64,000 nt of DNA from Rhodanobacter soli (lineage in GTDB: Bacteria; Pseudomonadota; Gammaproteobacteria; Xanthomonadales; Rhodanobacteraceae), in contig NZ_JBEPSD010000003.1 in assembly GCF_040548735.1 (NCBI RefSeq), forward strand, positions 124,001 to 188,000, written 5' to 3'. Each line of letters begins with the position of its first letter. The first letter of the stretch is position 1. The notes beneath the pieces are model-generated. The model made no database searches. It was not told the DNA's origin and worked only from the letters and a program-made list of their open reading frames with translations. Shown here one piece after another: positions 23,685 to 43,342 of this stretch. A program made the position numbers and the translations under genes.

Positions 23685-23716
23685 GTTGCGCGGATGGGGC
23701 GACCGGGAGGACAGGG

Positions 23717-27688: not shown

Positions 27689-27727
27689 GGCACGGCGCGT
27701 GGCTATCGATGCAACAGAGAATACCCG

Positions 27728-27744
27728 GCCCCGCGCTGCGGGGC
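27728..27744 (-). terminator. Short GC hairpin after the esterase gene
   Basis: GCCCCGC and GCGGGGC form a 7-bp perfect stem with a 3-nt loop, 9 bp beyond the esterase stop on the minus strand and before pilR. There is no clear U-tract, so it may be a weak terminator or an attenuator of read-through into pilR. Confidence 0.4.
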
Positions 27745-27752
27745 AAAGACTG

Positions 27753-28841
27753 CTAATGCCCCAGCCGGCGGTCGAAGAAGCGCACCATCACGGCATATGC
27801 CTCGCGCGATTCGGGCATGTCCGGGTCCGAGAAGAACGAATGCCACATGCCATCCCAGACATGCAGCTCGGTATCCACCCCGGCCGCGGTCAGCAGGGCC
27901 TGGCTGTGCAGGACCGAGCTCAGGGTGAAATCGCGGCTGCCAGTGATCAGCAGGGTCGGCGGGAACTTCGCCAGCAGCACGGGGGAGTTGGCCGGGAATA
28001 CCAGCGGGTCGCTGGCGCTGGCGCCCTTGAAGTACGGCAGGTCGGCCAGTTTGAGCGGTCCGGCGGGCGGCGGGTCGCCGCTCAGCACGGGCGCCACGTA
28101 GGCGGAATCGCCGCCAAGGTCGCTGATCGAACCGCAGAAGGTGCCGATCGCTCCCGGCACCGGCAGCTTTTTGGTGATGATCCGCGCGACCGCCTCGCCG
28201 GTGAGCACGCCGCCGGCGGAGCAGCCGTAGATGCCGATGTTCCGCGCCGGGTACTGCTTGAGCAGGGCGCGGTAGACCGCCTCGACGTCCTCGCTGGCGG
28301 CCGGGAACACGTGTTCCGGCCCCTGCCGGTAGTCCACGCTGACGACCTTGATCCGGCCCAGGCTGGCCAGCGGGATCGCCTCCACCAGCCCGCCGCTGTG
28401 CGCGCCCCACAGGAAGGCGCCGCCGTGCAGGTTGATCAGCACCCGGTGCCGCTGCCCCGCGGCGATGCCCTGTGCCGGCAGCACCACGTCCGTGGGCACG
28501 CCGCCGATGGTCTCGGTGTGGATCTTCACCGGATAGAGTTTCTTCATGCGATCGGCGCGATCGGTGTTGATCCTGTCGTAGTAGGCGCGACTGGCAGCGA
28601 TCGAGCCGATGCCCGGCGCGTGCCGGCTTTGTTCGAGCATCCGCTGGAACTGCCGTTGCGCCTGGGGCGACGCGTACGCCGAGTACGGCACGACGAAGGC
28701 AGGCACGCTCACGTTGCCGCGGCTGTCGACGCCGGGCCGTTGCGCCTGCGCGAACGCCGGGGCGCCGAACATGCCGATGCAGAGCAGGCCGGCGCCGAAC
28801 AGGACGGTTTGCATCAGTCGTGGGGCGCGTGTTGCAGGCAT
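27753..28841 (-). CDS. Exported alpha/beta-hydrolase esterase (HSL-like)
   Basis: 362 residues from the ATG at 28841, chosen because GAGGAG lies 7 nt upstream; a TTG at 28859 would extend it. A signal peptide ends near AFAQAQ (~32). The hydrolase core has an HGGAF oxyanion motif (139-143), nucleophile elbow GCSAG with S208, a candidate acid in TGSRDF and histidine in GMWHSFF, as in hormone-sensitive-lipase-type carboxylesterases. It is the last gene of the minus-strand GH65-sulfatase operon, 37 bp after the GH65 stop. In that setting it could remove acyl groups from a sugar substrate in the periplasm; this is inference. Confidence 0.82.
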   Translation of the reverse strand: MPATRAPRLMQTVLFGAGLLCIGMFGAPAFAQAQRPGVDSRGNVSVPAFVVPYSAYASPQAQRQFQRMLEQSRHAPGIGSIAASRAYYDRINTDRADRMKKLYPVKIHTETIGGVPTDVVLPAQGIAAGQRHRVLINLHGGAFLWGAHSGGLVEAIPLASLGRIKVVSVDYRQGPEHVFPAASEDVEAVYRALLKQYPARNIGIYGCSAGGVLTGEAVARIITKKLPVPGAIGTFCGSISDLGGDSAYVAPVLSGDPPPAGPLKLADLPYFKGASASDPLVFPANSPVLLAKFPPTLLITGSRDFTLSSVLHSQALLTAAGVDTELHVWDGMWHSFFSDPDMPESREAYAVMVRFFDRRLGH

Positions 28842-28878
28842 GGTCTTTCTCCTCGTCAAGTCGGGGTGGCGCGGCAGT

Positions 28879-31155
28879 TCAGAGTGCGTGGCGGACCAGT
28901 TCCGGCTTGCCGTCGGCCGTGCGGCGGACCGTGATGTCGTAGTAGCGGCCGCGCAAGCTGACGTGCTTCAGCGTGAACGACTTCCACGGCGGCGGCAGCA
29001 CCGGCGCATAGGCCTCGACCAGTCCGCCCTGTTCGATACGCAGGCCGGTGAAGCCGTAGAGGATGTTTTGCAGCAGGCCGCCCGAGGCGGTCAGGAAATA
29101 GCCGGTGTTGTTGCTGGCGGTCTCGGTGCGCACGTTGAACGGCGGCTTCAGTACGTGGGTGGTGAGGTTGCGCTGGAACCACGCGCCGGCCGTCTGCGCG
29201 TCGCCCAGCGTGGCGGCGGCGATCGACACGGGCGAAAGCCCCATGCTGTTCGGCTCCTGCCGCGACCGCTCGATCAGCCCCATCGCGTAGTCGAAATCGT
29301 TGCGACGCACCTCGGCGCTCATCGGCAGGTCCAGCGAGGGATAGGCGAGCGCCGGCAGGGCGGTGGCGCCCCAGGCGTCGATGTCGTGCGGCACGCTTTC
29401 GTCGAAATCGAGATGGTGTCCGTCCTTCGCCGAGAACGGGATGTGCAGCTGCGCGGCGACATCGGCCCAGTGCGGGTCCGACTTCACGCCGACGACGGAC
29501 GCGGCGGCCACGGCGATGTTCAGCGCCTTGCGCGCCGAGGCGTTGGTGAACGTGTCGTTCGGTACGTCGTTGTAGGCCTCCAGCACGGAGGTGACGTGGT
29601 GGATTTCGTAGCGGTGTTTGTCTGCCACCCAGGTCGCGCGGCTGGCCCAGAAATCCGCCACGTCGCGGATCACCGGCCAGCCGTAGCGGGCCAGCCACTG
29701 GCGGTCGCCGCTGGCCAGGTAGTACTGCCACTGCGCGATGGCGACGTCGGCGTTGACGTGGATCTCGCGCTCGCCGAGCACGTAGGCCATGTGCGGCGTC
29801 TGCTCGCTGCCGTTCTGCGGGTCGGCCTCCCACGGGAACATCGCGCCGCGCAGGCCGCGTGCCTGCGCACGCGCTTCGGCCGCCGGCAAGGTGCGCGAGC
29901 GGAACATCACCAGCGATTTCGCCCGCTGCGGATGCAGCAACAGCAGCGCGGGAAAGACCCAGGTGTCGCTGTCCCAGAACACGTGGCCGGCGTAGCCGGG
30001 CGTCATGCCGCAGCCACCGGTCGCCCAGGCGGTGTCGGGGGTGGTATTGGACAGCAGGTAATAGAGGTCGGAGTGGACGATCTGCTGCGCCTGCGGATCG
30101 CCGTCGATGCGGATGTCCGATGTCCAGAGTTCGCTCCAGGCATGGCGGTGCGCGTCGAGCAGGCGCTCGAAGCCGGCCGTGCGTGCGGCGTTGGCCAGCG
30201 CGCGATCCTGCTGCGCATCGCCACCCCAGCCCGCGCGCGACAGCGCGACGAACTTGGTGAAGGTGTAGGTCTGTCCCTTGCGCACTTTCGCGGTGAGGTT
30301 CAGCGCCAGCCGGTAGCTGCTTCGGTACACGCGCAGGTCGGTGGGCTGCAGGCCCGCGGGCAGGTCGATCGCGGCCGCCTCGGCCATCGACAGACCTTGC
30401 TCGGCGTGGCCGTCTAGCCATAGCGTGCGGTCACCCGCGTCGCCATCGGCGGCGGTGACATGCGTGTCGCCGTGGTACCAGAGCGCTGCACGGTCGGGCG
30501 TGGCCGGTGCGACCGGTTCGAGCTTCAGGTTGTGCGCCGCCACCGCCTCCTGCATTTCATCGCCGGTCAGGCGCGCCAGCGGGAAGCGCGGCTGATGCGG
30601 CGCCCACAGGTTCAGCGCGAACGACAGCTGCACCTCGCCGTCGAACTCCGGCGTGATCGACAGCCGGGTCGCGGCGAGGTGCGGCGAGGCCTGGCTGACC
30701 AGGCTCGTCACTTCGATGCGCGTGGCCCGACCATGGTCGAGGTAGCGGTAGCGCGTAGTGAGCGTGCCCTCGTACATATCCAATTGCTGCCGGTAGTCCT
30801 GGAACACGGCCGGGTCCAGCGCGACTTGGTTGAGCCAGAAGTGGCCGGCCGGCGAGTCGCCCGTGCTGTAGTCGATCTCGCTCCAGCCGGGCACCGCGGC
30901 CGGGCGTGCGATATCGCCCTTCGCGTAGTCCATGAACGCGACCAGGTAGGCCAGGTTGCCCTCGGTGCCGCGCGGCGCAGTCAGTGTCGACAGGTAGCCG
31001 TTGCCGAGCTGGCCGGGAAAGTAGTGGGTGAAGTCCTTCGCGGTGGCCGTCAACAGGAAGCTGGGATCGGTCGCGGCCCGCGCGCCGACGGCACCGCCAA
31101 GGCCGATGACGGCCAGTGCCGCGAGGTGCCACCGTCGACGGGATGCGCGCTTCAT
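28879..31155 (-). CDS. Exported GH65-family glycoside hydrolase, copy A
   Basis: 758 residues from the ATG with a GGGGAGGT ribosome binding site. The signal peptide ends near ARA-ATDPSFLL. The protein matches the GH65 (alpha/alpha)6 plan: GRATRIEVTSLVSQASPHLAATRLSITP, HVFWDSDTWVFPALLLLHP, REIHVNADVAIAQWQYY, HHVTSVLEAYNDVPNDTFTNA and TETASNNTGYFLTASGG. The usual PDE at the general-acid loop reads VLE; the glutamate (~526) is kept. Exported GH65 members are hydrolases such as acid trehalase or kojibiose hydrolase rather than phosphorylases. It is a diverged tandem duplicate of the next gene upstream, with 73 bp between them. Confidence 0.85.
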   Translation of the reverse strand: MKRASRRRWHLAALAVIGLGGAVGARAATDPSFLLTATAKDFTHYFPGQLGNGYLSTLTAPRGTEGNLAYLVAFMDYAKGDIARPAAVPGWSEIDYSTGDSPAGHFWLNQVALDPAVFQDYRQQLDMYEGTLTTRYRYLDHGRATRIEVTSLVSQASPHLAATRLSITPEFDGEVQLSFALNLWAPHQPRFPLARLTGDEMQEAVAAHNLKLEPVAPATPDRAALWYHGDTHVTAADGDAGDRTLWLDGHAEQGLSMAEAAAIDLPAGLQPTDLRVYRSSYRLALNLTAKVRKGQTYTFTKFVALSRAGWGGDAQQDRALANAARTAGFERLLDAHRHAWSELWTSDIRIDGDPQAQQIVHSDLYYLLSNTTPDTAWATGGCGMTPGYAGHVFWDSDTWVFPALLLLHPQRAKSLVMFRSRTLPAAEARAQARGLRGAMFPWEADPQNGSEQTPHMAYVLGEREIHVNADVAIAQWQYYLASGDRQWLARYGWPVIRDVADFWASRATWVADKHRYEIHHVTSVLEAYNDVPNDTFTNASARKALNIAVAAASVVGVKSDPHWADVAAQLHIPFSAKDGHHLDFDESVPHDIDAWGATALPALAYPSLDLPMSAEVRRNDFDYAMGLIERSRQEPNSMGLSPVSIAAATLGDAQTAGAWFQRNLTTHVLKPPFNVRTETASNNTGYFLTASGGLLQNILYGFTGLRIEQGGLVEAYAPVLPPPWKSFTLKHVSLRGRYYDITVRRTADGKPELVRHAL

Positions 31156-31228
31156 CTCGACCTCCCCGGCCTCGCCGGTTGTCGCTGGCCGCACCCGGTC
31201 CATCCAGGTGCGGCATGGTGGCGATGTT

Positions 31229-33481
31229 TCAGATCGCGGTGCGGGTCAGCTTCGCCTTGCCGTCGGCATCGCGATCGATACGGATGTCGTAGTGCTTGCC
31301 GCGGAAGGTGATGCGCCTGAGCGTCAGCGATTTCCACCCCGGCGGCAGCACCGGCGCATACGCCTCGGCCAGGCCGTCGTCCTCGATGCGCAGGCCGCTG
31401 AGGCCATAGACGAAGCTCTGCACGAAGCCGGCCGACGTCGCGAGGATGTAGCCCGCGTTGTTGGCGACGGTTTCCGTGCGCACGTTGAACGGCGGTTTCA
31501 GGAAGCCGACCAGGTTGCGCTGGATCCACTCGCCGGCGGCCTTGTCGTCGCCCAATTCGGCGGCGCCGACGGCGAGCATCACCATCATCATTTCGTTCGG
31601 GTCGTCGCCATGCACTTTCAGTTCGTGCAACTGGAACGCGAAGTCGTTGCGGCGCACCTGCGGCGACATCGGCAGGTCGAGGTTCGGATACATCAGCCAG
31701 GCCAGCGACGAGCCCATCCAGGTGATCTTGTCGTGCGGCACCGAGGCGTCGAAGTCGAGATGGCGCTGGTTCTTCTCGTCGAACGGGATGTACATCTTCG
31801 CGGCGATCGTGGCCCATTGCGGATCGGGCGCGGCGCCGACGAGCTTCGCGGCCTTGATCGCGATCTGCAGCGACTTGCGTGCGGCGGCATTGGTGAACGA
31901 GTCGTTCGGCACGTCGTCGTAGGCCTCGTCGGGCGAGGTGACGTGATGGATCTCGTAGCGATCCTGCGCCTTGTCGTACGTGACCCGGCTGACCCAGAAC
32001 TGCGCGATCTCGCGGATCACCGGCCAGCCATGCTGCTTCAGCCAGGCACCATCGCCGCTGGCGAGGTAGTACTGCCATTGCGCGATCGCGATGTCGGCGT
32101 TGACATGGATCTCGCGGAACACGCCGTAGGCGAAGTGCGGCGTATGGTCGACGCCGGTTTCCGGATCGGCCTCCCACGGGTACATCGTGCCCTTCACGCC
32201 GTACTGCTTGGCACGCTCGCGCGCCGGCTGCATGGTGCGCGCGCGGAACATCACGATCGGCTTGGCGCGTTCCGGGTGCAGCAGGAGCAGGGCGGGGAAC
32301 ACCCACGAATCGCTGTCCCAGAACGCATGGCCGGCGTAGCCCGGGGTCAGCGCGCAGGCACCCATCGGCCAGGCCGTGCCTACCGTGGAATTGGACAGCA
32401 GGTAGTACAGGTCCGAATGCACGGCGCGCTGCACGTCCGGATCGCCGTCGACCACGATGTCGGACTTCCACAGCGCATGCCAGGCGGCCTGGTGTTCCGC
32501 GAGCAACGCGGCGAAGCCCTTCTGGCGCGCGGCCCTGGCCAGCGCCACGTCGTCGCGGGCGTCGCCGCCCCAGTTCTGCCGGGATGCGGCGATGTACTTG
32601 GTGAAGGTGTAGGTCTTGCCCTTCTGCACCTTGGCGGTGAGGTTGAGCGACAGCTTGTACGGGCCTTTTTCCAGCTTCACGCTTTCGATCGCGAGACCCG
32701 GCGGCAGCCCGATCGCGGCGGCCTCGGCCATCGTCAGGCCGTGTTCGGCGCGGCCGTCCAGCCACAGCGTCAGCGCCTTCGTGTCGCCGTCGCTGGCGAG
32801 TACGCGGGTGTAGCCGGGATACCACACGGCGGCGCGGTCGGGCGTCGGCACCGGCTTGTTGTCCAGCGTCTGGCCGCTGGCGATCACCGCCGCGATCATC
32901 TCGTCGCCAGTCATGCTGGCGATCGGGAAGCGCGGTTGGTGTTCCGACCACAGCCGGATCGGGAAAGTCAGCTGCACGCTGCCGTCGAACTGTGGCGTGA
33001 TGGAGAGCTGCGTCGCCGCCAGGTGGTTCGAGGCCTGGCTGACGAACGTGGTGACCTGGATGTCGGTGGACTTGTTCGCATAGTCGAAGCGATAGCTCGT
33101 GGTGAGCGTGCCGCCGTGCATGTCCAGCGTCTGCGCGTAGTCGACGAAGATCTTCTTGTCGATGCGGGTCGAATTGAGCCAGCCGCCGCCGGGGTTGTAG
33201 TCGATCTCGCTCCAGCCGGGGATCGCGGCGGGACGCGCGATGTCGCCGGGCTTGTAATCCATGAACGCGACCATGTACGCGCGGTTGCCCTCGGTGCCGC
33301 GCACCGAGGTCATCGTGGAGAAATAGCCGTTGGCCAGGTAGCTGGGGAAATACGTGCCGAAATTTTCCGCCGTGCCGGTGAGCAGGAAGCTGGGGTCGGT
33401 GGCGACGGCGCGCGTGCTGGCGCTGGCCAGCAACAGGCCGAGCGCGATGCCTGGAAGCAGGTGGTGGCGTGGCGAAATCAT
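31229..33481 (-). CDS. Exported GH65-family glycoside hydrolase, copy B
   Basis: 750 residues with a signal peptide (MISPRHHLLPGIALGLLLAS...) and a mature start ATDPSFLLTGTAENF almost identical to copy A. It has AFWDSDSWVFPALLLLHPERA, REIHVNADIAIAQWQYY and the canonical loop HHVTSPDEAYDDVPNDSFTNA with the general acid E519. No phosphate-site signature could be judged by eye, but export argues for hydrolysis of an alpha-linked disaccharide (trehalose, kojibiose or relative) in the periplasm. The start is 36 bp after the sulfatase stop. The pair A/B probably differs in substrate preference. Confidence 0.86.
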   Translation of the reverse strand: MISPRHHLLPGIALGLLLASASTRAVATDPSFLLTGTAENFGTYFPSYLANGYFSTMTSVRGTEGNRAYMVAFMDYKPGDIARPAAIPGWSEIDYNPGGGWLNSTRIDKKIFVDYAQTLDMHGGTLTTSYRFDYANKSTDIQVTTFVSQASNHLAATQLSITPQFDGSVQLTFPIRLWSEHQPRFPIASMTGDEMIAAVIASGQTLDNKPVPTPDRAAVWYPGYTRVLASDGDTKALTLWLDGRAEHGLTMAEAAAIGLPPGLAIESVKLEKGPYKLSLNLTAKVQKGKTYTFTKYIAASRQNWGGDARDDVALARAARQKGFAALLAEHQAAWHALWKSDIVVDGDPDVQRAVHSDLYYLLSNSTVGTAWPMGACALTPGYAGHAFWDSDSWVFPALLLLHPERAKPIVMFRARTMQPARERAKQYGVKGTMYPWEADPETGVDHTPHFAYGVFREIHVNADIAIAQWQYYLASGDGAWLKQHGWPVIREIAQFWVSRVTYDKAQDRYEIHHVTSPDEAYDDVPNDSFTNAAARKSLQIAIKAAKLVGAAPDPQWATIAAKMYIPFDEKNQRHLDFDASVPHDKITWMGSSLAWLMYPNLDLPMSPQVRRNDFAFQLHELKVHGDDPNEMMMVMLAVGAAELGDDKAAGEWIQRNLVGFLKPPFNVRTETVANNAGYILATSAGFVQSFVYGLSGLRIEDDGLAEAYAPVLPPGWKSLTLRRITFRGKHYDIRIDRDADGKAKLTRTAI

Positions 33482-33517
33482 CTCGACATGGCTCCTCGGG
33501 TCACGGGGCGGGGCGGT

Positions 33518-34993
33518 TCAATGCGCGGGGCCGAACGGGTCGGTGACGCCAGCCATCCACGGGTCGTGCGTGGCAGTGCGCCATGCGGCCAGTTGCTTGC
33601 GCAGGTCGGCCAGCGCGGCGGCTTGCGCGGGATCGTCGGCCAGGTTGATCACCTCGTCGGGATCGGCGGCGAGGTCGTACAGTTCTTCGGCAGGACGGTG
33701 CCGGAAGGCTTCGAGCGTGCGTTTGCCGAGGCGGACGCCGGGCGTCGAGACGATCGCCTTCCAGCTCGGCGACAGCGCCACGTCGCTGGCGATCGGCACT
33801 TCCAGGCTCGGCTCGAGATTGTGGAAATAGCTGTAGCTGCGCGTGCGCAGCGAGCGGATCGGGTAGTACTGGTTGATCTCGTGGAAGCTGTGCGTGGCGA
33901 ACACGCGGTCCCAGCCGGCGGGGTTCTCGTGCTCCAGGACCGGCAGCAGCGAGCGCCCCGGCAGCGGCAGGAAATGGTAGTCCGCGGGCACCGCCGCACC
34001 GGCCCAGGCCAGGATCGTGGGCGTGATGTCGATCCAGCTGACCATCGCCCGGTTATGCAGGTTGCGCTTGCGCTGCTGCGGCGAGCGCACGATCAAGGGC
34101 AGGCGGATGCCTTCGTGGTAGAGGTTGTCCTTCGCGCCCGGGAACGGCCGGCCGTTGTCGCTGAGGAAGATCACCAGGGTGTCGTCCGCATGGCCGCTGG
34201 CTTCGAGTTCCTGCAACAGCACGCCGACGCCGCTGTCGAGCCGGCTGACCGCTTCGCCGTACTGCGCCAGGTCGGCGCGCACCTCCGGCAGGTCGGGCAG
34301 GTGCGACGGCACCGCTACGTCGGCCGGCGCGTAGCGTTCGCGCTTCACTTCGGGCCAGTCGCGCGTGTTGCCGAATTGCGAGGGATCGCCGGCGCGGTGC
34401 GGATCGCTGTAGCCGACGGTGAGGAAGAACGGCCGTCCCGCCTGCGCGCGCATCCAGTGTCCCGCTGCATGGCCCATCGCGGCGACGTCGCGGTTGCCGG
34501 CCTGCTCCGGCAGCAGCCACGCGTCGTAGTCCAACAAGGCCAGCGGCTTGACGTGCAGCTTGCCGACGAGGGCCGTGGCGTAACCGGCCTGTTTCAGCAT
34601 CCACGGCAAGGTCTTCACGTTGTCCAGCAGCGAGAAGTTGTGCACGTCGTGGCTCAGGCCGTACATGCCATTGGTGTGCGAATAGAGGCCGGTGTAGAGC
34701 GTCGCGCGGCTCGAACTGCACGACGACACGGCGGCATACGCGTCGGTGAAAAGGCTGCCTTCGCGGGCCAGCCGATCGAGCACGGGCGTCCTCAGCATGC
34801 CGCCGCAGCAGCCCAGGTCATAGCCCAGGTCGTCGGCCACGATCAGCAGCACGTTGCGACCGGGCCGATCATCCTGGCGGCTGGCCGCAGGTGCGGCGGC
34901 GCGGGCGGGTGTCGCCGCGGCCATGCCCGGCCCCAGTGCGGCGCCCGCGGCGGCGACACTGGCGGCAAGAAATTCGCGGCGGCTGAGGCTCAT
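33518..34993 (-). CDS. Tat-exported sulfatase related to heparan N-sulfatase (SGSH)
   Basis: 491 residues. The N-terminus MSLSRREFLAASVAAAG carries a twin-arginine motif followed by a hydrophobic stretch. Metal ligands are in VADDLGYD (D54, D55) and SDNGRPFPGAKDN. The formylglycine motif reads VSSCSSSRATLYTG: Cys92 and Arg96 are present, but the usual proline at +2 is serine. NGMYGLSHDVHNF and LPWMLKQAGYATALVGKLHVKP are, as I recall them, close to mammalian SGSH, placing it in the S1 N-sulfoglucosamine-sulfohydrolase-like group. It should remove sulfate from a sugar in the periplasm. The start overlaps the transporter stop (ATGA). Confidence 0.85.
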   Translation of the reverse strand: MSLSRREFLAASVAAAGAALGPGMAAATPARAAAPAASRQDDRPGRNVLLIVADDLGYDLGCCGGMLRTPVLDRLAREGSLFTDAYAAVSSCSSSRATLYTGLYSHTNGMYGLSHDVHNFSLLDNVKTLPWMLKQAGYATALVGKLHVKPLALLDYDAWLLPEQAGNRDVAAMGHAAGHWMRAQAGRPFFLTVGYSDPHRAGDPSQFGNTRDWPEVKRERYAPADVAVPSHLPDLPEVRADLAQYGEAVSRLDSGVGVLLQELEASGHADDTLVIFLSDNGRPFPGAKDNLYHEGIRLPLIVRSPQQRKRNLHNRAMVSWIDITPTILAWAGAAVPADYHFLPLPGRSLLPVLEHENPAGWDRVFATHSFHEINQYYPIRSLRTRSYSYFHNLEPSLEVPIASDVALSPSWKAIVSTPGVRLGKRTLEAFRHRPAEELYDLAADPDEVINLADDPAQAAALADLRKQLAAWRTATHDPWMAGVTDPFGPAH

Positions 34994-36255
34994 GGCAGCG
35001 CTTCTGCCGGTGAGACGGCGGGGACGGCGGCGCGGTCGGTTTCGCGCTTGAAGAAGAACAGCGTGACCAGGATCAGGGTCATCGGCAGCAGCGAGAAATA
35101 GAACGCGTGGATGCCGTCGAAGCTGGCGAACACCCGCGCCGTGATGTACGAACCCATGGTGCCGCCGAGCGCGGAGAACACCACGATCAACCCGGTCATC
35201 GCCGCATGCATCGGCTTGGGCAGCGAGCTCAGCGCCACCGAGTTGATCACCGGGTAGATCGGCGCCATCAGCAGGCCGAGCAGCGGGATCAGGTACGCTG
35301 CGATCGGCGCGTTGAACCAGCCGACGTGCGGCTGCGCCACGACACCGCGCGCCAACGGCAGCACCACCATGACCAGCACGGCCATCGCCACCACGCATAC
35401 ATTGAGAAGCACATGCCAGCGCACGCGCTTGAGCACGACGCCGGCGCCGATGCGTCCCAGCGCGGTCATGCCGGCGAGGATGCTGGCGAACTGGATGCTC
35501 ATGGCGTTGGGAAGCTTCAGGATCTCGTTGTTGAAGGTGGGCAGCCAGGTGCCGAAACTCTGTTCGATCAGCACGTACAGGAACGCCGAGGCCAGGAACA
35601 CGTACACCAGCGGCCGTACGAACAGCTGCAGCATCTCCAGCAGCGAGTCGGAGAATGAATTGTTGTGCCCGTGCGCATGCGCGGCGCTTTCGTCCAGCCG
35701 GCTGCTCCCGAGCAGCAAGATGACCAGCGCACAGGCAGCGGCCAGCAGCCAGTACACGTTGAACCACACCGGATTGCCCGGGTGCAGCGGGTCGACGAAT
35801 GCACTGAAGATCCAGTTGCCGCCGAGCACGCCGACCATGAACAGGCCTTCGATGGTGTTGGTCAGCCGCGAGTGGGCGATGCGGTCCGTGGTGAGCAGGC
35901 CGATGGAGGAATACACGCAGACCTTGGTCATCGCAAAGCCGACGCCCACGCAGGCGAACAGCAGCCGCGTGGTGAGGAAACTGGGGTAGAGCGGCATCAA
36001 CAGGCAGGCGCCGCCGACGATGGCCAGGGCCAGCATCATCGAGCGCCGGTAGCCGAACATGGGCAGGAACGAGGCGACCAGGAACGAGGTGAACGCGATC
36101 GTGAGGTCCTTGTAGCGTTCCAGCGCACTGGCCTCGGGCTTGTCGATGCCGAAGGTGGCGATCGACTGCAGGATCACCGTGCCAACGCTGTTGAGCAGGA
36201 TCGCGAAGATCATGTAGATCAGCGCCAGCGCAATGATCATGCGGATTCGGTTCAT
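34990..36255 (-). CDS. MFS transporter of the GH65-sulfatase locus
   Basis: 421 residues with about twelve hydrophobic helices, N- and C-halves separated by a polar loop (SRLDESAAHAHGHNN, ~190-205). TNTIEGLFMVGVLGGNWIFSAF and VLIEQSFGTWLPTFNNEILK resemble FucP-type sugar permeases. It probably imports the sugar released by the periplasmic hydrolases, or an intact disaccharide for the cytosolic phosphorylase. It is the first gene of the operon transporter-sulfatase-GH65-GH65-esterase and overlaps the sulfatase ATG. A hairpin at 36314-36345 separates it from the receptor gene. Substrate unproven. Confidence 0.83.
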   Translation of the reverse strand: MNRIRMIIALALIYMIFAILLNSVGTVILQSIATFGIDKPEASALERYKDLTIAFTSFLVASFLPMFGYRRSMMLALAIVGGACLLMPLYPSFLTTRLLFACVGVGFAMTKVCVYSSIGLLTTDRIAHSRLTNTIEGLFMVGVLGGNWIFSAFVDPLHPGNPVWFNVYWLLAAACALVILLLGSSRLDESAAHAHGHNNSFSDSLLEMLQLFVRPLVYVFLASAFLYVLIEQSFGTWLPTFNNEILKLPNAMSIQFASILAGMTALGRIGAGVVLKRVRWHVLLNVCVVAMAVLVMVVLPLARGVVAQPHVGWFNAPIAAYLIPLLGLLMAPIYPVINSVALSSLPKPMHAAMTGLIVVFSALGGTMGSYITARVFASFDGIHAFYFSLLPMTLILVTLFFFKRETDRAAVPAVSPAEALP

Positions 36256-36313
36256 GTCACCCCCGGTGCTACGGCGTGTCCGGCTTCAGGAAAGTCGTGC
36301 TTCGGAAAAGCGC

Positions 36314-36345
36314 GGTCCGGGCCGCTCTGAGGTACGGCCCGGACC
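36314..36345 (-). terminator. Intrinsic terminator after the TonB-dependent receptor gene
   Basis: GGTCCGGGCCG (36314-36324) pairs with CGGCCCGGACC (36335-36345), an 11-bp stem with a 10-nt loop. On the minus strand it is followed by GCGCTTTTCC. It lies 16 bp past the receptor stop and 58 bp ahead of the transporter start, so it may separate or attenuate the two units. Confidence 0.6.
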
Positions 36346-36360
36346 ACGCGTGCCGCTGAA

Positions 36361-38910
36361 CTAGAACAGGTACTTCACCTGGAAGTTGATCTCGCGGCCT
36401 TCCAGTGGCCGGGCCAGGATCACGCCGCCGGAAACGGCGGTACCGAAGATGCGCGAGTTGCTTTCCGTCAGGCCCAGCTCGTTGGTGACGTTGGTGCCCT
36501 GCAGGCGCAGCTGCCAGTTCTTCTGGACGTTGGCGATCACGCCGAAGTCCCATGTGCTGTAAGTGCCAAGCTGCTGCAGGCCCGACTGATCCTGCGTATG
36601 CGGGCCGACATGCGTATAGGTCACGAAGGCGGTCACGTCGCCCCATGCGAACGGTATCCGGTAGCTCGGCGTGAACATGTAGCGGAACTTCGGTTGGCGC
36701 TGCAACTGCACGCCATTGATGAACTGACAGCCGCTCACGCCGGTCACCACGTTGGTGAACTTGAAGCAGGAATTATTGTGCGAGTAGTGGCCGTCGAGGT
36801 AATTGGCCACCAGCATCAGCTTCAAGTTCTCGATCGGGGTGATCGCACCGGACAGGTTGATGCCCTTGGAATCGGAGCCGTACAGCGCCGGCGCTCCCAC
36901 CGGCGTGCCGGCGCCGTCCGTGGGCTGGAACGACAGGCCATTGAACTGCTTGTGGTAAATGCTGATATCGGCGTAGATCAGATCCGACTGGTATTTGAAG
37001 CCGCCCTCGAGGTTCTGGATCTTCTGCACCGGAGCGGTGTTGCCGGTGGTGGCGCCGCGGATGCCGTTGTCGAAGTCGGCAAAATGCACGCCCTTGTTGG
37101 CACGCACGTACACGCTCATGTTGTCGGCCAATTGGTAGTTGGCGCCGACGGTCCACGAGGTGTGGGTTTTGTTGTAGTTGGTGTTGGCGAAAGTGCCGTT
37201 ACACACCGGTACCGAGTTGTTGTAGAGCGTGTTCGGATCGCCGTCCAGCGGGACGTTGGTGAGATTGCATACGTTGTTGGTCGCGTCCTGGTTCTCGAGA
37301 CGCGCCGAGGCATCGAACAACCAGGGGCCTACGCGCCACGAATCGGACAGATAGAACGCCTTGTTGGTGGCCTTGCCGTGCTGGGCGATGTTGAAGCCGC
37401 CGTTGTCGAGGAAACCCTGGTTGTCGGTCAGCTGCTTGATGGTGCCGGCGTCGTTGTAACTCACCATGATGGGACGCGCGTTGGGCGTATTCGTCATCAG
37501 CATCTGGTTGCCGAGCGCCCACTTGTCGTCCATCGTGTAGTGCGCCAGGTACACGCCCGCCGTCAGCGTGTTGCCCTCGAAGATCTCCTTGCTGAGGCGG
37601 AAGTCGTTGTTGATGTTCTTCAGGTGCTTGTGGATGTACCACCAGCCCTGGTGGATCACGCTCTGGTTCGGATCGACCGCGCCGCCGCCCGGGCCGGCGT
37701 AAGTCGCCGTGGCCGACCCGGCCGGAAGCTCGAAGCCGCCCTGGCTGCTCGGGGTGTTGTACAGCTCGTCGTTCAACGTGGCCGGGTTGGAGCCGGAGAA
37801 CAGCGCGTTGGTGTCGACGTCGCCGGCGTCGATCAGGAACTTGTCGCTGATCGTCCAGCCGTTGCCCAGGTCGTAGTCGAAGTTGCCGCCGAAGAAGTTC
37901 ATCTTCGCGCCGCGGCCGTTGGCGAGGTCGGCGTGGGTGCCGCCGCCCGGGTAGCCCGCCAGGAACACATGCTGGATGTACTTGCTGTTGTAGGTGTCCT
38001 TGAGCGGATCGAAGCCCGGATACGCGCTGAAGTTGTCGGTGCCATTCTGGATCAGCGGGATCGGCGTGATGAACTGGTTCTTGTCGTCCAGCCGGCGGGC
38101 GTAGAACATCATCGTGCCGTTGTCGGAATCATGGGTCAGCGTGGCGGTGAGCTGGCCACCCTTGTCGGCCGCGAACTGCGGGTCGCGCACGCCGTCGGAG
38201 TCGCGATAGAAGCCGCCCACGCTGCCGTACCAGTTCGGTGCGAGCTGGAAGCCGTAGAAGCCGTCGACGCGCTTCAGGTTTTCCGAGCCGTAGGTGACGC
38301 CGATGCTGCCGGACGGCACCTCGGTGCCCTGCTTGAGGATGAAGTTCTCGGTGGCGCCGATCTGGCCGTCCGCGAAGACTACCGACGGGCCGCCCTGCAG
38401 GATCTCGACCCGCTCGATGGTGTCGTCGAGGCGGAAGATCGTGGTCTGCTCGAAGAACGACAGGGTCGGCATGCCGTACAGCGGCGAACCCATCATCTGC
38501 ACCGTGTTGAATGGCGCGTCGCCGCCGCCCGGGAAGCCGGCGATCTCGATGTTGGCGCCGGTCTGGCCGCCGGTCGATTCGGGCCACAGGCCGGGCGCGA
38601 TCTTCAGCAGGTCGGCCGTGCTCTTGGGATTGGCCTGCTTGATCTGCTCGGCATCGGCGGTGGTCAGCGTGTAGCTCGCGTCGATCTTCTTCACGCCGGT
38701 GGCCGAACCGGTCACCACGACCTGTTGCAGGGTCGTGGTGGTCTTGGCGTTGGCCTGCCGCGGCGGGGTTTTCTTGGCGGTGGCCGGCGTGGTGGTCGCC
38801 TGGGTGTCTTGCGCCTGCGTGCTGTCCTGCGCCATCGCCGTCGCGGACATGAGAATGCCCGTGATGGCCGCCGACAGTATCAATCGATTCATTTGCTTGC
38901 TGTTGCCCAT
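36361..38910 (-). CDS. TonB-dependent outer-membrane receptor of the alpha-glucoside locus
   Basis: 849 residues. The signal peptide ends near AMA-QDSTQ. A Thr/Ala/Lys-rich stretch precedes the plug: LQQVVVTGSATGVKK and DADLLKIAPGL-like STADLLKIAPGLWPES, then TIERVEILQGGPSVVFADGQIG. The 22-strand barrel ends REINFQVKYLF with a C-terminal phenylalanine. It should take up an oligosaccharide or glycoside with energy from TonB-ExbBD. The start at 38910 is supported by GGAGG 7 nt upstream and overlaps the end of the phosphorylase-mutase gene by 22 bp. An ATG at 38892 would overlap by ATGA but lacks a ribosome binding site. Confidence 0.92.
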   Translation of the reverse strand: MGNSKQMNRLILSAAITGILMSATAMAQDSTQAQDTQATTTPATAKKTPPRQANAKTTTTLQQVVVTGSATGVKKIDASYTLTTADAEQIKQANPKSTADLLKIAPGLWPESTGGQTGANIEIAGFPGGGDAPFNTVQMMGSPLYGMPTLSFFEQTTIFRLDDTIERVEILQGGPSVVFADGQIGATENFILKQGTEVPSGSIGVTYGSENLKRVDGFYGFQLAPNWYGSVGGFYRDSDGVRDPQFAADKGGQLTATLTHDSDNGTMMFYARRLDDKNQFITPIPLIQNGTDNFSAYPGFDPLKDTYNSKYIQHVFLAGYPGGGTHADLANGRGAKMNFFGGNFDYDLGNGWTISDKFLIDAGDVDTNALFSGSNPATLNDELYNTPSSQGGFELPAGSATATYAGPGGGAVDPNQSVIHQGWWYIHKHLKNINNDFRLSKEIFEGNTLTAGVYLAHYTMDDKWALGNQMLMTNTPNARPIMVSYNDAGTIKQLTDNQGFLDNGGFNIAQHGKATNKAFYLSDSWRVGPWLFDASARLENQDATNNVCNLTNVPLDGDPNTLYNNSVPVCNGTFANTNYNKTHTSWTVGANYQLADNMSVYVRANKGVHFADFDNGIRGATTGNTAPVQKIQNLEGGFKYQSDLIYADISIYHKQFNGLSFQPTDGAGTPVGAPALYGSDSKGINLSGAITPIENLKLMLVANYLDGHYSHNNSCFKFTNVVTGVSGCQFINGVQLQRQPKFRYMFTPSYRIPFAWGDVTAFVTYTHVGPHTQDQSGLQQLGTYSTWDFGVIANVQKNWQLRLQGTNVTNELGLTESNSRIFGTAVSGGVILARPLEGREINFQVKYLF

Positions 38911-41900
38911 GTCACGTCCTCCCCATCAGTTTCAGTTTGGGTCGCGGCCTGTCTGACGACAGGTCCACGCCAGTTGGCCGTTCGGGTTGTTGTAAAGGTG
39001 CCGATGTCGAATGCTGCGATGCTTGGTAACACCAGGTCTGCCTTGGCCAGCGCCAGTGGCTGGCCAATTCCCACCGCCGCCATCCCCGCGGCGTGAATGC
39101 TGGCGATGCCAGCCGCGGCGTCTTCGACGCCAATACACTCGTCCGGCGCCACCCCGAGGGCGTTTGCCGCAGCGAGGAAAATTTCCGGATCGGGCTTGGA
39201 GCGGCTGATCCGGTTGGCGTCGACGACGGCGTCGAACAGATCGGCGATGCCCAGGCGCTCCAGCAGCAAGCCGGCATTGCGGCTGGCCGAAGCCAGCGCC
39301 ACCTTGAGCCCGGCCTGGCGCACCTGTTCGATCGCCGTGCGCGCGCCGGGCAGCAGGTTCCGCGGCCCTAAATGCTCGATCTGCTCGCGGTAATAATCGT
39401 TCTTGCGTGTAGCCAGCGTGTGCTTCTCGGCTTCCGTGTAGGGGCGCGTCGCGGCCTGTAGCAGGATGTCCAGCGAGCCGCGCCGGTCGACGCCTTTCAT
39501 GCGCTCGCCGGTGGCGTCGTCGAACGGCACGCCGATCTCGTCGGCCAGTCTTTTCCAGGCGGCGTGATGTACTACCGCGGTGTCGGCGATCACGCCGTCC
39601 AGATCGAAGATCACCGCCTTCAGCGGCACCGCCCCGGCATCGACGAAGCCGGCGCACTTCAGGCGCAGGGGATGGCCCGCGTGCAGGCGTTGCGGCAGGC
39701 CGTCGTGCAGGAAGGTGAGTGCGCTGCCCTCGGTGAGGGTGTACAGCACGCCGTCGCCATCGACCTCCACGCGCAGATGCGTATCGCGCCAGCGCAGCCC
39801 GAAGCGGTAACTTCTCCACGCCGCCGGCAGCCGCGGCGCCAGTGCGGGCAGGCCATCGTGCACGCGCAGTCCGCCGAAACCCCAGGTCAGCGCCAGCCAG
39901 CTGCCGGCCATCGCCGCCATGTGCAGGCCATGTGCCGCGTTGCCGTGCAGGTCGTCCAGGTCGACGCGCAAGGTGTCGAGGAAGTAACGATGCGCCTTGT
40001 CGGCGTAGCCCACTTCGGCCGCGATCACCGCGAACGTGGATGCCGACAGGGTGGAGTCGTGGACGGTGATGCCTTCGTAGTAATCGAAGTTGCGGCGCTT
40101 CGCGGCGGCATCGACCTGTTCGCCCGCCAGCATCAGGGCGAGCAGCGTGTCGGCCTGCTTGCACACCTGGTGGCGGTAGATGGTGAGCGGATGCAGCCGC
40201 AACAGCAGCGGTTGTCTGCCCGGCGTACCGGCGAGCCCGGCCGGCAGACGCGGCTTGTCGAGGAAGCCGTCATCCTGCGGAAAGATGTCGAGTATGGCGT
40301 CGATCGGCAGGTGCATCGCCTGGGCGGCGCGGCGCCACTGGGCCACCTCGTCGGCGTGCAGGTCGATCCGTGCGCGCAGGGCGGCGTGTTCGACCGGGTA
40401 CGTCAGCGCCATCCAGTCGGCGACGTTGGCGGCGTCCTGCAGGTGCCGCTGCGCCAGGCGGTTGGTGTAATGGTTGTTGTCGACCAGGGCGGAGTATTCG
40501 TCCGGCCCGGTCACCTCGTGGATGCAGAACGCGCCGCCATGGCGCGCGCTGAAGTGCCCGACCTGTAGCCAGACGCGCGCGGTCTCGAACAGCATTTCGG
40601 CGCCGCATTCGAGCAGGAACGCGTCGTCGCCGCTGGCGTCGACGTAGAGGCGGATCGCCCACGCCACCGCCGCGTTGATGTGGTATTGCGCCGAGCCGCT
40701 GGGAAAGTACGAGGAGCACTCGTCGCCGCTGATCGTGCGCCACGCGTACAGCGCGCCGCGCGGATGGTTGAGCTCGCGCGCGTGGCGGCGCGCGTTGTCC
40801 AGCGTGCGGTGGCGATACGTCAGCATCGCGCGTACCAGCTCCGGCGCCAGGGTGGCCAGCACCGGCAGCATGAACACCTCGGCGTCCCAGAAATAGTGGC
40901 CTTCGTAGCCTTCGCCGGTGAGGCCCTTGGCGGCGGTGCTGCCGTGGCTGTCGCGGCTGCTCGACTGGAACACGTGGAACAGGTTGAAGCGCAGCGCCTG
41001 TTCGGTCGCCGGGTCGCCGTCGATGGCAAGGTCGGCCTGCGCCCATAGCGCGGACAGCGCCCTGGCCTGGCGTGCCAGCAGCGCCGGATAACCGAGTGCG
41101 CTGGCCGTGCCCAGCGAGGCCTGCGCACGTGCGAGCAGATCGTTTGCCTGGTCTCCGGCGAACGGCGAGGTGAAGGCGTAGGCGACGTACTTGTCCAGGG
41201 TGACCGTCTGGCCCGGCGCAAGGACGCCCTCGTAGACCTGGGTGACGCCGTGCGGCGCCAGGTTGGCGTAGCGGAACTGCAAGTCACCGGCGTGCCGGTG
41301 CCGTTGCGCGCAGACCAGCCGGATGCCGCTATGCGTGGTCTGCTGGCCGACCCAGGCGAGGTCTTCCTCGGCGTGGGCGTCACAGGTGCCGAGACCGCCA
41401 TTGATGCGGCTGCCGATGCGCGGATCGAGACCCTGTTCGACGGCTTCGCGCGCGGTGCTGATGGATGATTCCAGCGTGATCGGTCCGGCGTAGTCGAGCG
41501 AGCGCACGCAATAGTGGATCGCCAATAGGCCGGCATCCTCCAGGCTCACGATGCGCTCGGCCTCGATCTCCAGCGTGGCGCCCTCCGGCGATCGCCAGCG
41601 CAGCCGGCGCCGGTAGCAGCCTTGGCGCAGGTCGAGCGCACGCTCGAAATACAGCCATTCGCCCTGGTCGAGCCGCACGGGCGTGTCGCCGAGGCGCAGG
41701 TGGATGCGCGCAGCGTCGGCAACCGGGATGCGCGTGTCGGTGTGCGTGGCGAAGCCGGGGAATCGCTCGTGGTACTCGATCGGGCTGCGTTCCCATACGG
41801 CGGACAGCAGGGTGGCCTGGCTCGCGCTGTCGCTTTCCTCGAGGTTGCCGCGCACGCCGAGGGTGCCGTTGGCCAGCGCGAAAAGGCTTTCGTCCTGCGC

Positions 41901-42014
41901 AAAGCCAGCCGGGTCGGTGCCGTGGCGAACGAGCAGCCAGGGGTCGGCCGCAGCCCTTCCACCGAGCGTCAACACCTCGGCATCGAGCGGCACCGCTGCG
42001 TAGTGATCCACCAT
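38889..42014 (-). CDS. GH65 disaccharide phosphorylase fused to beta-phosphoglucomutase
   Basis: 1041 residues, two enzymes in one chain with no signal peptide. Residues 1 to ~790 are a GH65 phosphorylase (maltose/trehalose/kojibiose type): FALANGTLGVRGNLEES, HYFWDAEVFMLPVL, HEVTGPDEYSALVDNNHYTN with the general acid at ~506, then the phosphate-site region ITVHDSTLSASTFAVIAAEVGY. Residues ~797-1041 are a HAD beta-phosphoglucomutase: FDLDGVIADT (nucleophile D804, acid/base D806), ALASASRN and SKPDPEIFLAAANALGV. The chain would convert disaccharide + Pi to glucose + beta-glucose 1-phosphate and then to glucose 6-phosphate in the cytosol. Which disaccharide is not decidable by eye. Confidence 0.92.
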   Translation of the reverse strand: MVDHYAAVPLDAEVLTLGGRAAADPWLLVRHGTDPAGFAQDESLFALANGTLGVRGNLEESDSASQATLLSAVWERSPIEYHERFPGFATHTDTRIPVADAARIHLRLGDTPVRLDQGEWLYFERALDLRQGCYRRRLRWRSPEGATLEIEAERIVSLEDAGLLAIHYCVRSLDYAGPITLESSISTAREAVEQGLDPRIGSRINGGLGTCDAHAEEDLAWVGQQTTHSGIRLVCAQRHRHAGDLQFRYANLAPHGVTQVYEGVLAPGQTVTLDKYVAYAFTSPFAGDQANDLLARAQASLGTASALGYPALLARQARALSALWAQADLAIDGDPATEQALRFNLFHVFQSSSRDSHGSTAAKGLTGEGYEGHYFWDAEVFMLPVLATLAPELVRAMLTYRHRTLDNARRHARELNHPRGALYAWRTISGDECSSYFPSGSAQYHINAAVAWAIRLYVDASGDDAFLLECGAEMLFETARVWLQVGHFSARHGGAFCIHEVTGPDEYSALVDNNHYTNRLAQRHLQDAANVADWMALTYPVEHAALRARIDLHADEVAQWRRAAQAMHLPIDAILDIFPQDDGFLDKPRLPAGLAGTPGRQPLLLRLHPLTIYRHQVCKQADTLLALMLAGEQVDAAAKRRNFDYYEGITVHDSTLSASTFAVIAAEVGYADKAHRYFLDTLRVDLDDLHGNAAHGLHMAAMAGSWLALTWGFGGLRVHDGLPALAPRLPAAWRSYRFGLRWRDTHLRVEVDGDGVLYTLTEGSALTFLHDGLPQRLHAGHPLRLKCAGFVDAGAVPLKAVIFDLDGVIADTAVVHHAAWKRLADEIGVPFDDATGERMKGVDRRGSLDILLQAATRPYTEAEKHTLATRKNDYYREQIEHLGPRNLLPGARTAIEQVRQAGLKVALASASRNAGLLLERLGIADLFDAVVDANRISRSKPDPEIFLAAANALGVAPDECIGVEDAAAGIASIHAAGMAAVGIGQPLALAKADLVLPSIAAFDIGTFTTTRTANWRGPVVRQAATQTETDGEDVTWATASK

Positions 42015-42089
42015 AGAACCCCCGTCTCTCCGTCTGGCGCGTCAGGCCGATGGGCCCGCCAGGCCGCGGCTGGCGGCGAGCTTGGCAGC

Positions 42090-42123
42090 AAATGTTATCG
42101 GTATCAAGATACCGATAACATTT
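42090..42123. promoter_or_regulatory. 34-bp inverted repeat, probable LacI-family operator
   Basis: AAATGTTATCGGTATC (42090-42105), a 2-nt AA spacer, and GATACCGATAACATTT (42108-42123): 16-bp arms without a mismatch. It sits in the 323-bp gap between the phosphorylase-mutase gene (-) and the LacI-type gene (+). It is far more AT-rich than its surroundings. The rest of the gap (42015-42089 and 42124-42337) shows no further gene or repeat. Confidence 0.8.
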
Positions 42124-42337
42124 AGTTGCACGGACTTGTCATGAGCACGATCCGGGTCGAAGGAGGGGCGTGGGTTCGTAACTTTGCATCCGCAGCGGCG
42201 TATGGCCGGCGGCGGGCCGGGGCGAGGTTGCATCGGCGTGACGAATGTCGACACACTGCAAGCGCCGGTTCGCGCCATCGCTGCAGTCCGGCAGCGTCGC
42301 GGCATCGGATCGGCCAAGCCAATGAAGGATCAGATAG

Positions 42338-43342
42338 TTGAGCAAGAAGGGCGCGCGCAAGAACGCGTCAGGCGGCCTGACCATGGCCGACCTGGCGCAA
42401 CTGGCCGGGGTATCCAAGATCACCGTCTCGCGGGCGCTGGGCGACAGCCCGCTGGTCAACCCGGAAACCCGCGAGCGGATCCAGGCGCTGGCGCGCGAGC
42501 GCGGCTACAAGCTCAACATCAGCGCGCGCAACCTGCGCCTGCGCCGCAGCCATACCGTGGCGGTGATCGTGGAGATGAAGCCGTCCACCGATCGCACCAT
42601 GTTCGACCCGTACCCGCTGGTGCTGCTGGGCGGCATTTCGCAGGAACTCACCGCAGCCGGCTACAGCGTGCTGCTGACCACCCGCCAGGGCGCCAGTGCG
42701 GCGGCGGTGCAGGCGGCCGACGGCCTGATCCTGCTGGGTCAGGGCGCGCACCAGGACGCGGTGCGCCGGTTCGACAAGCTGTGCCTGCCGATGGTGGTGT
42801 GGGGCGCGCAGTCGGCCAGCGACGCGCACGTGGTGGTGGGCAGCGACAACCGCCTCGGCGGCGCGGTGGTGGCGCGGCACTTCATCGCGCTGGGCCGGCG
42901 CCGTCCGGTGTTCATCGGCAATCCCAGCCACCCGGAAATCTTCGAGCGCCTGAACGGTTTCATCGACGCGCTGGCGGTGCGCGGGATCAAGCCGCTGCTG
43001 ATGCGGCGCGACGAGTTCACCGTGGACTCGGGCATGGACGCGGTGCGTTCGCTGCATGAGCGCAAGGTCGGCTTCGATGCGATCTTCGCCTGCAACGACC
43101 TGCTCGCGATGGGCGCGATCCGCGCCACGCTGGACCTGGGGCGCTCGGTGCCGGCCGATGTCTCGGTGGTCGGGTACGACGACATGCCGCTGGGCGCCAG
43201 CTTCCTGCCGCCGCTGAGTTCGGTGCGGCAGGACTGGCAGGAAGGCGGCATGTTGCTGGCACGCAAGGTGCTGGCGCTGATCGATGGCGAGGCGGCCAAA
43301 TCGGAATGCCTGCCGGTCAGCCTGATCGTGCGTTCGACCTGA
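42338..43342 (+). CDS. LacI-family regulator of the alpha-glucoside locus
   Basis: 334 residues. Translation probably starts at a TTG (42338) with AAGGA 9 nt upstream; the first in-frame ATG at 42383 would cut into the helix-turn-helix flank. The DNA-binding part is LTMADLAQLAGVSKITVSRAL with hinge LNISARNLRLRR. The effector domain has VAVIVEMKP and ends LPVSLIVRST. It is divergent from the phosphorylase-mutase and receptor genes, and the 34-bp palindrome lies between, so it likely represses that operon in the absence of the substrate sugar. It converges with pilS. Confidence 0.92.
   Translation: MSKKGARKNASGGLTMADLAQLAGVSKITVSRALGDSPLVNPETRERIQALARERGYKLNISARNLRLRRSHTVAVIVEMKPSTDRTMFDPYPLVLLGGISQELTAAGYSVLLTTRQGASAAAVQAADGLILLGQGAHQDAVRRFDKLCLPMVVWGAQSASDAHVVVGSDNRLGGAVVARHFIALGRRRPVFIGNPSHPEIFERLNGFIDALAVRGIKPLLMRRDEFTVDSGMDAVRSLHERKVGFDAIFACNDLLAMGAIRATLDLGRSVPADVSVVGYDDMPLGASFLPPLSSVRQDWQEGGMLLARKVLALIDGEAAKSECLPVSLIVRST

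Follow-up and report, generated by a model that had tools for sequence, protein, structure and literature searches.

A probable TonB-dependent trehalose-utilisation locus of Rhodanobacteraceae in the pilS-pilR junction, with an accessory sulfatase

The window, by which we mean the whole 64,000-nucleotide stretch of Rhodanobacter soli DNA that was analysed, probably carries a TonB-dependent trehalose-utilisation locus of the Rhodanobacteraceae that is controlled by a LacI-type regulator, occupies the junction between pilS and pilR and is accompanied by an accessory sulfatase. The first-pass annotation had proposed that a sulfated or acylated alpha-glucosidic disaccharide is taken up, trimmed in the periplasm and phosphorolysed inside the cell. 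That outline agrees with the sequence, but sulfation as the general purpose of the locus does not. The annotation knew of no described pathway joining these parts, and we likewise found none, nor any account of the locus or of a trehalose sulfatase, in the excerpts of open-licence literature consulted, among the matches listed.

Results

Organisation of the locus

The eight parts listed in the first-pass annotation are all present, as confirmed by open reading frames and profile searches, with seven genes on the minus strand and lacI on the plus strand. From the first gene of the operon to the last, the minus-strand genes encode a GH65 phosphorylase followed in the same polypeptide by a beta-phosphoglucomutase (the fusion, 38889-42014), a TonB-dependent outer-membrane receptor with plug and barrel domains (36361-38910), an MFS transporter (34990-36255; MFS_1, 77.7 bits), a Tat-type, putatively exported sulfatase closest to human SGSH (33518-34993), two putative exported GH65 hydrolases, GH65b (31229-33481; profile match and alignment with solved relatives) and GH65a (28879-31203; likely start near 31155), and a putative exported esterase of the GCSAG hormone-sensitive lipase group (27753-28859; likely start near 28841). 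The LacI-type regulator, recognised by profile match, is encoded at 42338-43342. The description of the minus-strand genes as two compact units is fair, the units being parted by the gap 36256-36360. Export signals were assessed by eye on the translations. The longest sulfatase reading frame extends to 35767, too far upstream, and the start is most likely at 34993, which gives the Tat-type sequence MSLSRREFL and a 4-base overlap with the MFS stop.

The palindrome that had been noted beside the LacI-type gene is real and recurs in relatives. Its core, TGTTATCGGTATC-AA-GATACCGATAACA, was found by palindrome and pattern scans at 42093-42120, between lacI and the fusion, as a double palindromic operator with two half-sites around CG. 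The window's genome contains a single copy of the pattern and 0 of the reversed-pattern control. In a scan run without a shuffled control, 45 of the 46 named loci scanned had a similar palindrome between lacI and the fusion, as did 10 of the 11 further stretches, which partly repeat named loci; L103 and L166 had none there. That LacI controls a promoter at this palindrome is a fair inference.

Position between pilS and pilR

The genes flanking the locus, both overlooked in the earlier reading, are pilR and pilS, which places the gene set in the pilS-pilR junction. On the right in the operon's reading direction lies a pilR-type sigma-54 response regulator (26303-27688, minus strand), which adjoins pilS in empty sites. 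The left-hand border is a pilS histidine kinase (43364-45016, minus strand) with the PF25323 PilS transmembrane domain, HisKA and HATPase_c. This combination of transmembrane domain and kinase, with an NtrC-type regulator next door in relatives, identifies a PilS-PilR pair. About 15.7 kb separates the two genes in the window, with 21 bp from pilS to lacI and 64 bp from the esterase to pilR. Two MacB/FtsX-type ABC permease genes (23417-26289, plus strand) lie beside pilR.

A GH65b match is absent from 108 family genomes, 20 of which are named, and the junction was tested in 19 of these. The distance from pilS to pilR was 53-123 bp in all ten same-genus genomes tested, and the two genes were likewise close in two further family members, so that the spacing was below 125 bp in 12 of the 19. 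Wider spacings were seen in L149 (734 bp) and L150 (about 1.1 kb); a pilR match was absent from the short flank in 4 of the 19 junctions (L152-L155) and a pilS match was absent in G012. Genes that are neighbours in locus-free relatives are held apart by the locus in the window. Among 38 relatives' loci with the esterase directly before pilR, the gap between the two spans 64-531 bp (median 80). A scan of 27500-28100 gave no sigma-70-like promoter; its one terminator-like site lies within the esterase gene. Because pilR follows the esterase so closely on the same strand, this pilus regulator may be read together with the sugar operon. The position of the locus may couple the use of sugars to the control of type IV pili.

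Conservation in Rhodanobacteraceae

With GH65b as bait, a match at E up to 1e-30 was obtained in 125 of 233 family genomes; in 12 the best match was weaker than 1e-100, which leaves 113. We fetched 77 loci, of which 41 are complete in the sense of having lacI, GH65b and pilR on one stretch, and many of the other 36 are ended by contig boundaries. The presence of GH65b in all 41 complete loci follows by construction. The same loci contain the fusion and the receptor without exception, the MFS gene in 40, the esterase in 35 and pilS in 29; the gene set is conserved in other Rhodanobacteraceae. The first-pass annotation had staked its proposal on co-conservation of the sulfatase and esterase genes with the GH65 and receptor genes. 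The esterase behaves in this way. The sulfatase does not, being present in 4 of the 41 complete loci and 13 of the 233 family genomes, too few for a core part. Other recurring genes encode a GH37 trehalase (24 of 41), GH65a (19), a TPR protein whose C-terminus resembles 2OG-Fe(II) oxygenases (16) and a GH127 protein (2).

The TPR/oxygenase-like protein is often encoded between the exported GH65 genes (L090:12256-14073 and 25 more loci) and is absent from the window. L053 (5324-7195), L056, L057, L109 and L119 have a receptor and a fusion that are inverted and diverge more strongly; in L053 and L056 a GH127-family gene sits between the fusion and lacI.

The fusion was not seen in 27 of the 77 loci. 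A second locus type combines receptor, GH65b and trehalase, the latter in 12 of 12, with no fusion seen (L074, L077, L079, L081, L084, L086, L089, L091, L093, L094, L098 and L100, with L081 and L091 on short contigs). Without a visible fusion there are also two cut pil-site loci with a trehalase (L075, L118) and two loci with a trehalase-like gene at 31-33% (L120, L122). Neither fusion nor trehalase was found in the more distant, GH65b-containing L102, L107, L108 and L111, or seen in the short or cut stretches L048, L051, L055, L058, L072, L085 and L096. One trehalase representative gave a Pfam match of 318 bits. The GH37 gene is missing from 17 of the 41 complete loci and from the window's locus; a copy lies elsewhere in the window's genome.

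The fusion resembles trehalose phosphorylases

The excerpted text of De Beul et al. (PMC8537180) gives six specificity positions for GH65 phosphorylases, which read TRIGPP in the assayed trehalose phosphorylase TbGP, EEAPxx for kojibiose and KV[MF]NES for maltose, and quotes the loop-3 triplet of Nakai et al. as HNE for maltose, TPK for kojibiose and SAY for trehalose. Aligned with CsKP (3wiq), the fusion has Trp391, Arg392, Ile394 and a Pro immediately before 417. Specificity could be read at 392, 394 and 416 (placed via its neighbour 417), with 64, 402 and 585 at alignment gaps. Against maltose phosphorylase 1h54, the position of the HNE triplet reads SSY in the window. Among relatives, Arg is found in 49 of 49 loci and Ile in 47 of 49, and the triplet is mostly SAY (Ala in 51 and Tyr in 48 of 59 copies). 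We took R392, I394 and P416 together with SAY, here SSY, as the trehalose phosphorylase signature. The GH65 domain scores 364 bits in the window, the general acid Glu of GPDEY is kept in 49 of 49, and the phosphate site that replaces the base Glu has Ser at its first position in all 49 and Thr (48) or Ser (1) at its second, where CsKP has Ser. The second domain scores 241.1 bits with the beta-phosphoglucomutase model TIGR01990, above the curated cut-off of 189.4. Counts for the fusion triplet, GH65a, GH65b and the esterase come from 89 stretches, the 77 loci and 12 more, some of which repeat named loci.

Because the published motifs and the triplet both fit, we assign the fusion to the trehalose phosphorylase type, joined to a beta-phosphoglucomutase. 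Together with the trehalase genes nearby, found in 24 of the 41 complete loci and throughout the receptor-GH65b loci of the second type, the motifs point to trehalose as the sugar phosphorolysed, and we consider this assignment the firmest of those made on substrates, likely though short of certain. The trehalose- or kojibiose-like sugar of the first reading is narrowed accordingly to trehalose for this step; the kojibiose motif is absent, and a kojibiose phosphorylase was dropped as a candidate. Searched with the fusion at E up to 1e-150, 368 other genomes drawn from the class gave one match (G807), where the phosphorylase is separate from the beta-phosphoglucomutase; its neighbours are that separate gene and housekeeping genes, with no trehalose genes nearby.

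Predicted exported GH65 enzymes, esterase and receptor

According to the portion of PMC8626586 used here, FjGH65A is an exported enzyme acting on kojibiose and dextran branch oligosaccharides, with catalytic Glu472 and Glu616 and with the +1 glucose held by Trp391, Glu392 and Thr407. Both catalytic Glu residues and the Trp-Glu pair are kept in all 79 aligned copies of GH65b and all 46 of GH65a. The exported enzymes have the acid and base Glu of an inverting hydrolase, as E472 and E616 of FjGH65A, and Thr407 is not retained in the alignment. Among solved structures they are nearest to an alpha-1,2-glucosidase and PGGHG. Scores with the kojibiose hydrolase model NF053734 (374 bits for GH65a, 346 for GH65b) are far from its cut-off of 800. 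With good confidence these proteins can be predicted to be hydrolases; specificity for alpha-1,2 linkages falls a little below an even call.

These features bear on two other readings of the locus. It could serve sugars with an alpha-1,2-glucosidic bond, for example kojibiose, glucosylglycerol or fragments of alpha-1,2-branched dextran, with trehalose phosphorolysis incidental, as the retained Trp-Glu and the activities of exported FjGH65A (PMC8626586, in part) would allow. However, the motif of kojibiose phosphorylases is missing from the fusion, a GH37 trehalase accompanies most complete loci, and no dextranase gene turned up among the recurring parts, with some of the neighbours named, which together make this reading quite unlikely. 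Alternatively, the locus might scavenge plain trehalose, with exported GH65s that correspond in bacteria to the acid trehalase of fungi, an unspecific esterase and a sulfatase that is a lineage extra without a role on the sugar. Fungal acid trehalases do belong to GH65 (PMC10969515 and PMC8537180, as excerpted) and GH37 trehalase often stands beside GH65a or replaces it, yet the exported enzymes are closest to an alpha-1,2-glucosidase and PGGHG, they retain the Trp-Glu conserved in kojibiose-acting enzymes, one trehalase beside two more trehalases would be odd, and the sulfatase is never found outside the locus in its 13 carriers. We regard plain scavenging as rather unlikely, though far from negligible. 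Trehalose as the core sugar is the reading we prefer, because the fusion has the motifs of trehalose phosphorylase and the exported GH65s combine hydrolase residues with an alpha-1,2-type Trp-Glu.

The esterase matches the NCBIfam model for the GCSAG hormone-sensitive lipase group with 511 bits (cut-off 410), and its HGG, GCSAGG, Asp and His are retained in 50 of 50 aligned copies. A search of solved chains at E up to 0.001 found no relative of the TonB receptor.

The sulfatase is an accessory part of the locus

The closest solved relative of the sulfatase is human sulfamidase SGSH (4mhx, 327.7 bits), followed by S1_8A (150.9 bits). The available part of PMC4014121 states that Arg282 of sulfamidase is Lys in O-sulfatases. 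Lys replaces Arg282 in the window and its 12 orthologues, and also in five distant homologues, which sets these proteins apart from SGSH. The other SGSH active-site residues are retained in 13 of 13 save Asn274 (11 of 13), and the active-site Cys, Arg, Lys and His are present in all 13. Scavenging of N-sulfated glucosamine from heparan-like sugars would be in keeping with the sulfamidase match and these residues. Arg282, the mark of N-sulfatases, is nevertheless Lys in all carriers and the locus has no glucosamine or uronate gene; on these two grounds heparan scavenging was dropped as very improbable.

In the excerpt of PMC12549532, S1_8 enzymes of the carrageenan pathway take 2-O-sulfate off galactose, and the authors link xylose 2-sulfatase and sulfamidase to the S1_8 2-O-sulfatases as members of the same group. 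Since Lys stands for Arg282 and S1_8 relatives act on 2-sulfates, we infer a 2-O-sulfate on an alpha-glucoside. That this is the target of the enzyme is a tentative assignment, and the substrate, a 2-O-sulfated alpha-glucoside such as 2-sulfotrehalose, would be a guess.

Orthologues of the sulfatase (74-83% identity) occur in 13 of the 233 family genomes, all within the 113 with the stronger GH65b match. In all 13 the gene lies inside the locus, beside the MFS gene, GH65b, GH65a or the receptor; eleven of these contexts were read in longer stretches (L162-L172), that of G052 in L128 and L066, and the last is the window. Across the order (398 genomes, family members included) there was one extra match, in G250, partial and at 48% identity, on an 18.5-kb stretch without other locus genes. 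Plasmid homologues were considered as a clue to the substrate; H1-H4 of the 13 records lie at no more than 45% identity in marine ABC-transporter or algal-polysaccharide loci and were uninformative. The sulfatase is accessory and strictly tied to the locus, with dependence in one direction. As it is not a core part, sulfation is not the main purpose of the locus, and the idea of a sulfated disaccharide survives for the minority of species with the gene and not for the rest.

Sulfatase maturation

Cys-type sulfatases require formylglycine, and the consensus motif for this maturation is CxPxR. Among PF03781 proteins we take a Cys pair to be the mark of a true formylglycine-generating enzyme (FGE). 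CxPxR is absent from all 13 sulfatases, which read CSSSR; its counterparts in the five distant homologues are CAASR, CSGSR or CSASR. In the window's protein the Cys is residue 92 when counted from the MSLSRREFL start. Four genes account for the five PF03781 matches of the window's genome; the Cys pair is missing from all four, and the matches are no proof of maturation. The anaerobic maturase model reaches 32.7 bits in this genome against a cut-off of 349. The CSSSR sulfatase at 33518-34993 sits in a genome without a recognised maturase. Across the 13 carrier genomes there are 20 PF03781 matches at E up to 1e-30, of which one has the Cys pair (G213, LCAPEYC) and 19 do not.

Maturation of the sulfatase thus looks doubtful. 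The protein may be served by another maturase, may work otherwise or may be inactive as a sulfatase. One version of the last possibility is that it is never matured and is inactive in most carriers, the locus working without it; the variant motif, the scarcity of the FGE Cys pair in carriers, the low anaerobic maturase score in the window's genome and the absence of the gene from most loci favour this. Set against it are the catalytic residues kept in every carrier, unlike decay, and the possibility of another maturation route, and we judge it the less probable outcome, if a substantial one. Decay in particular is disfavoured because the Cys and Arg are conserved. The excerpts of open-licence literature consulted gave no answer on formylglycine without FGE. 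A Cys-type sulfatase is retained here in lineages mostly without a canonical maturase seen.

Discussion

Built on the observed gene order, conservation, catalytic residues and motif matches, a model of the pathway can be proposed in which substrates, export, transport direction and regulation are predictions. The LacI regulator would govern the locus at the double palindromic operator. The TonB receptor would take a trehalose-containing glycoside into the periplasm, where the esterase may strip acyl groups and the exported GH65 hydrolases may cut off a glucosyl cap in alpha-1,2 linkage or some comparable alpha-glucoside. In some species, including that of the window, the sulfatase would take off a 2-O-sulfate, and in many relatives GH37 trehalase would split part of the trehalose. 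The MFS protein would move trehalose or glucose inward, the fusion would convert trehalose into glucose and beta-glucose 1-phosphate, and its second domain would yield glucose 6-phosphate. Counting against the model are the low kojibiose hydrolase scores and missing Thr407 of the exported GH65s, the loci that carry no GH37 gene, the four distant loci lacking both fusion and trehalase, the surroundings of the G807 phosphorylase with no trehalose genes, and the doubtful maturation of the sulfatase.

A more ambitious version, which we consider improbable, is a dedicated pathway for O2-decorated trehalose, in which the GH65 pair, the S1_8-like sulfatase and the esterase all free the same position for one phosphorylase. 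It would include the first trehalose-2-sulfatase, matured by an unrecognised enzyme or independent of formylglycine.

Trehalose derivatives include the 2-sulfotrehalose of haloalkaliphiles, the acylated and sulfated trehalose lipids of actinobacteria and alpha-1,2-glucosyl trehalose. If the model is correct, the locus would give its Rhodanobacteraceae carriers a route to such compounds; a catabolic sulfatase for them was not found in the open-licence excerpts, among the matches listed. Loci that differ in the presence of the sulfatase but match one another in other respects offer a clean genetic test.

Compared with known systems, the sulfatase is nearest to the S1_8 group (SGSH 4mhx; carrageenan S1_8A, B and C), a predicted membership based on these closest solved relatives. 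It differs from that group in the Lys for Arg282, in CSSSR instead of CxPxR, in its alpha-glucoside setting and in a maturase seen in 1 of 13 carriers. Similar to FjGH65A (7fe3), the kojibiose hydrolase MmGH and PGGHG, the exported enzymes have GH65 domains, both catalytic Glu residues and the +1 Trp-Glu; unlike them, they score below the kojibiose hydrolase cut-off, lack Thr407, occur as two paralogues and stand in a trehalose rather than a dextran context. The fusion shares its motifs, phosphate-site Ser and beta-phosphoglucomutase domain with the known GH65 trehalose phosphorylase and beta-phosphoglucomutase route (EC 2.4.1.64). In contrast to that route, and to the distant gammaproteobacterial relative with its separate genes, both activities would here reside in one polypeptide, encoded in a locus with a TonB receptor and exported hydrolases.
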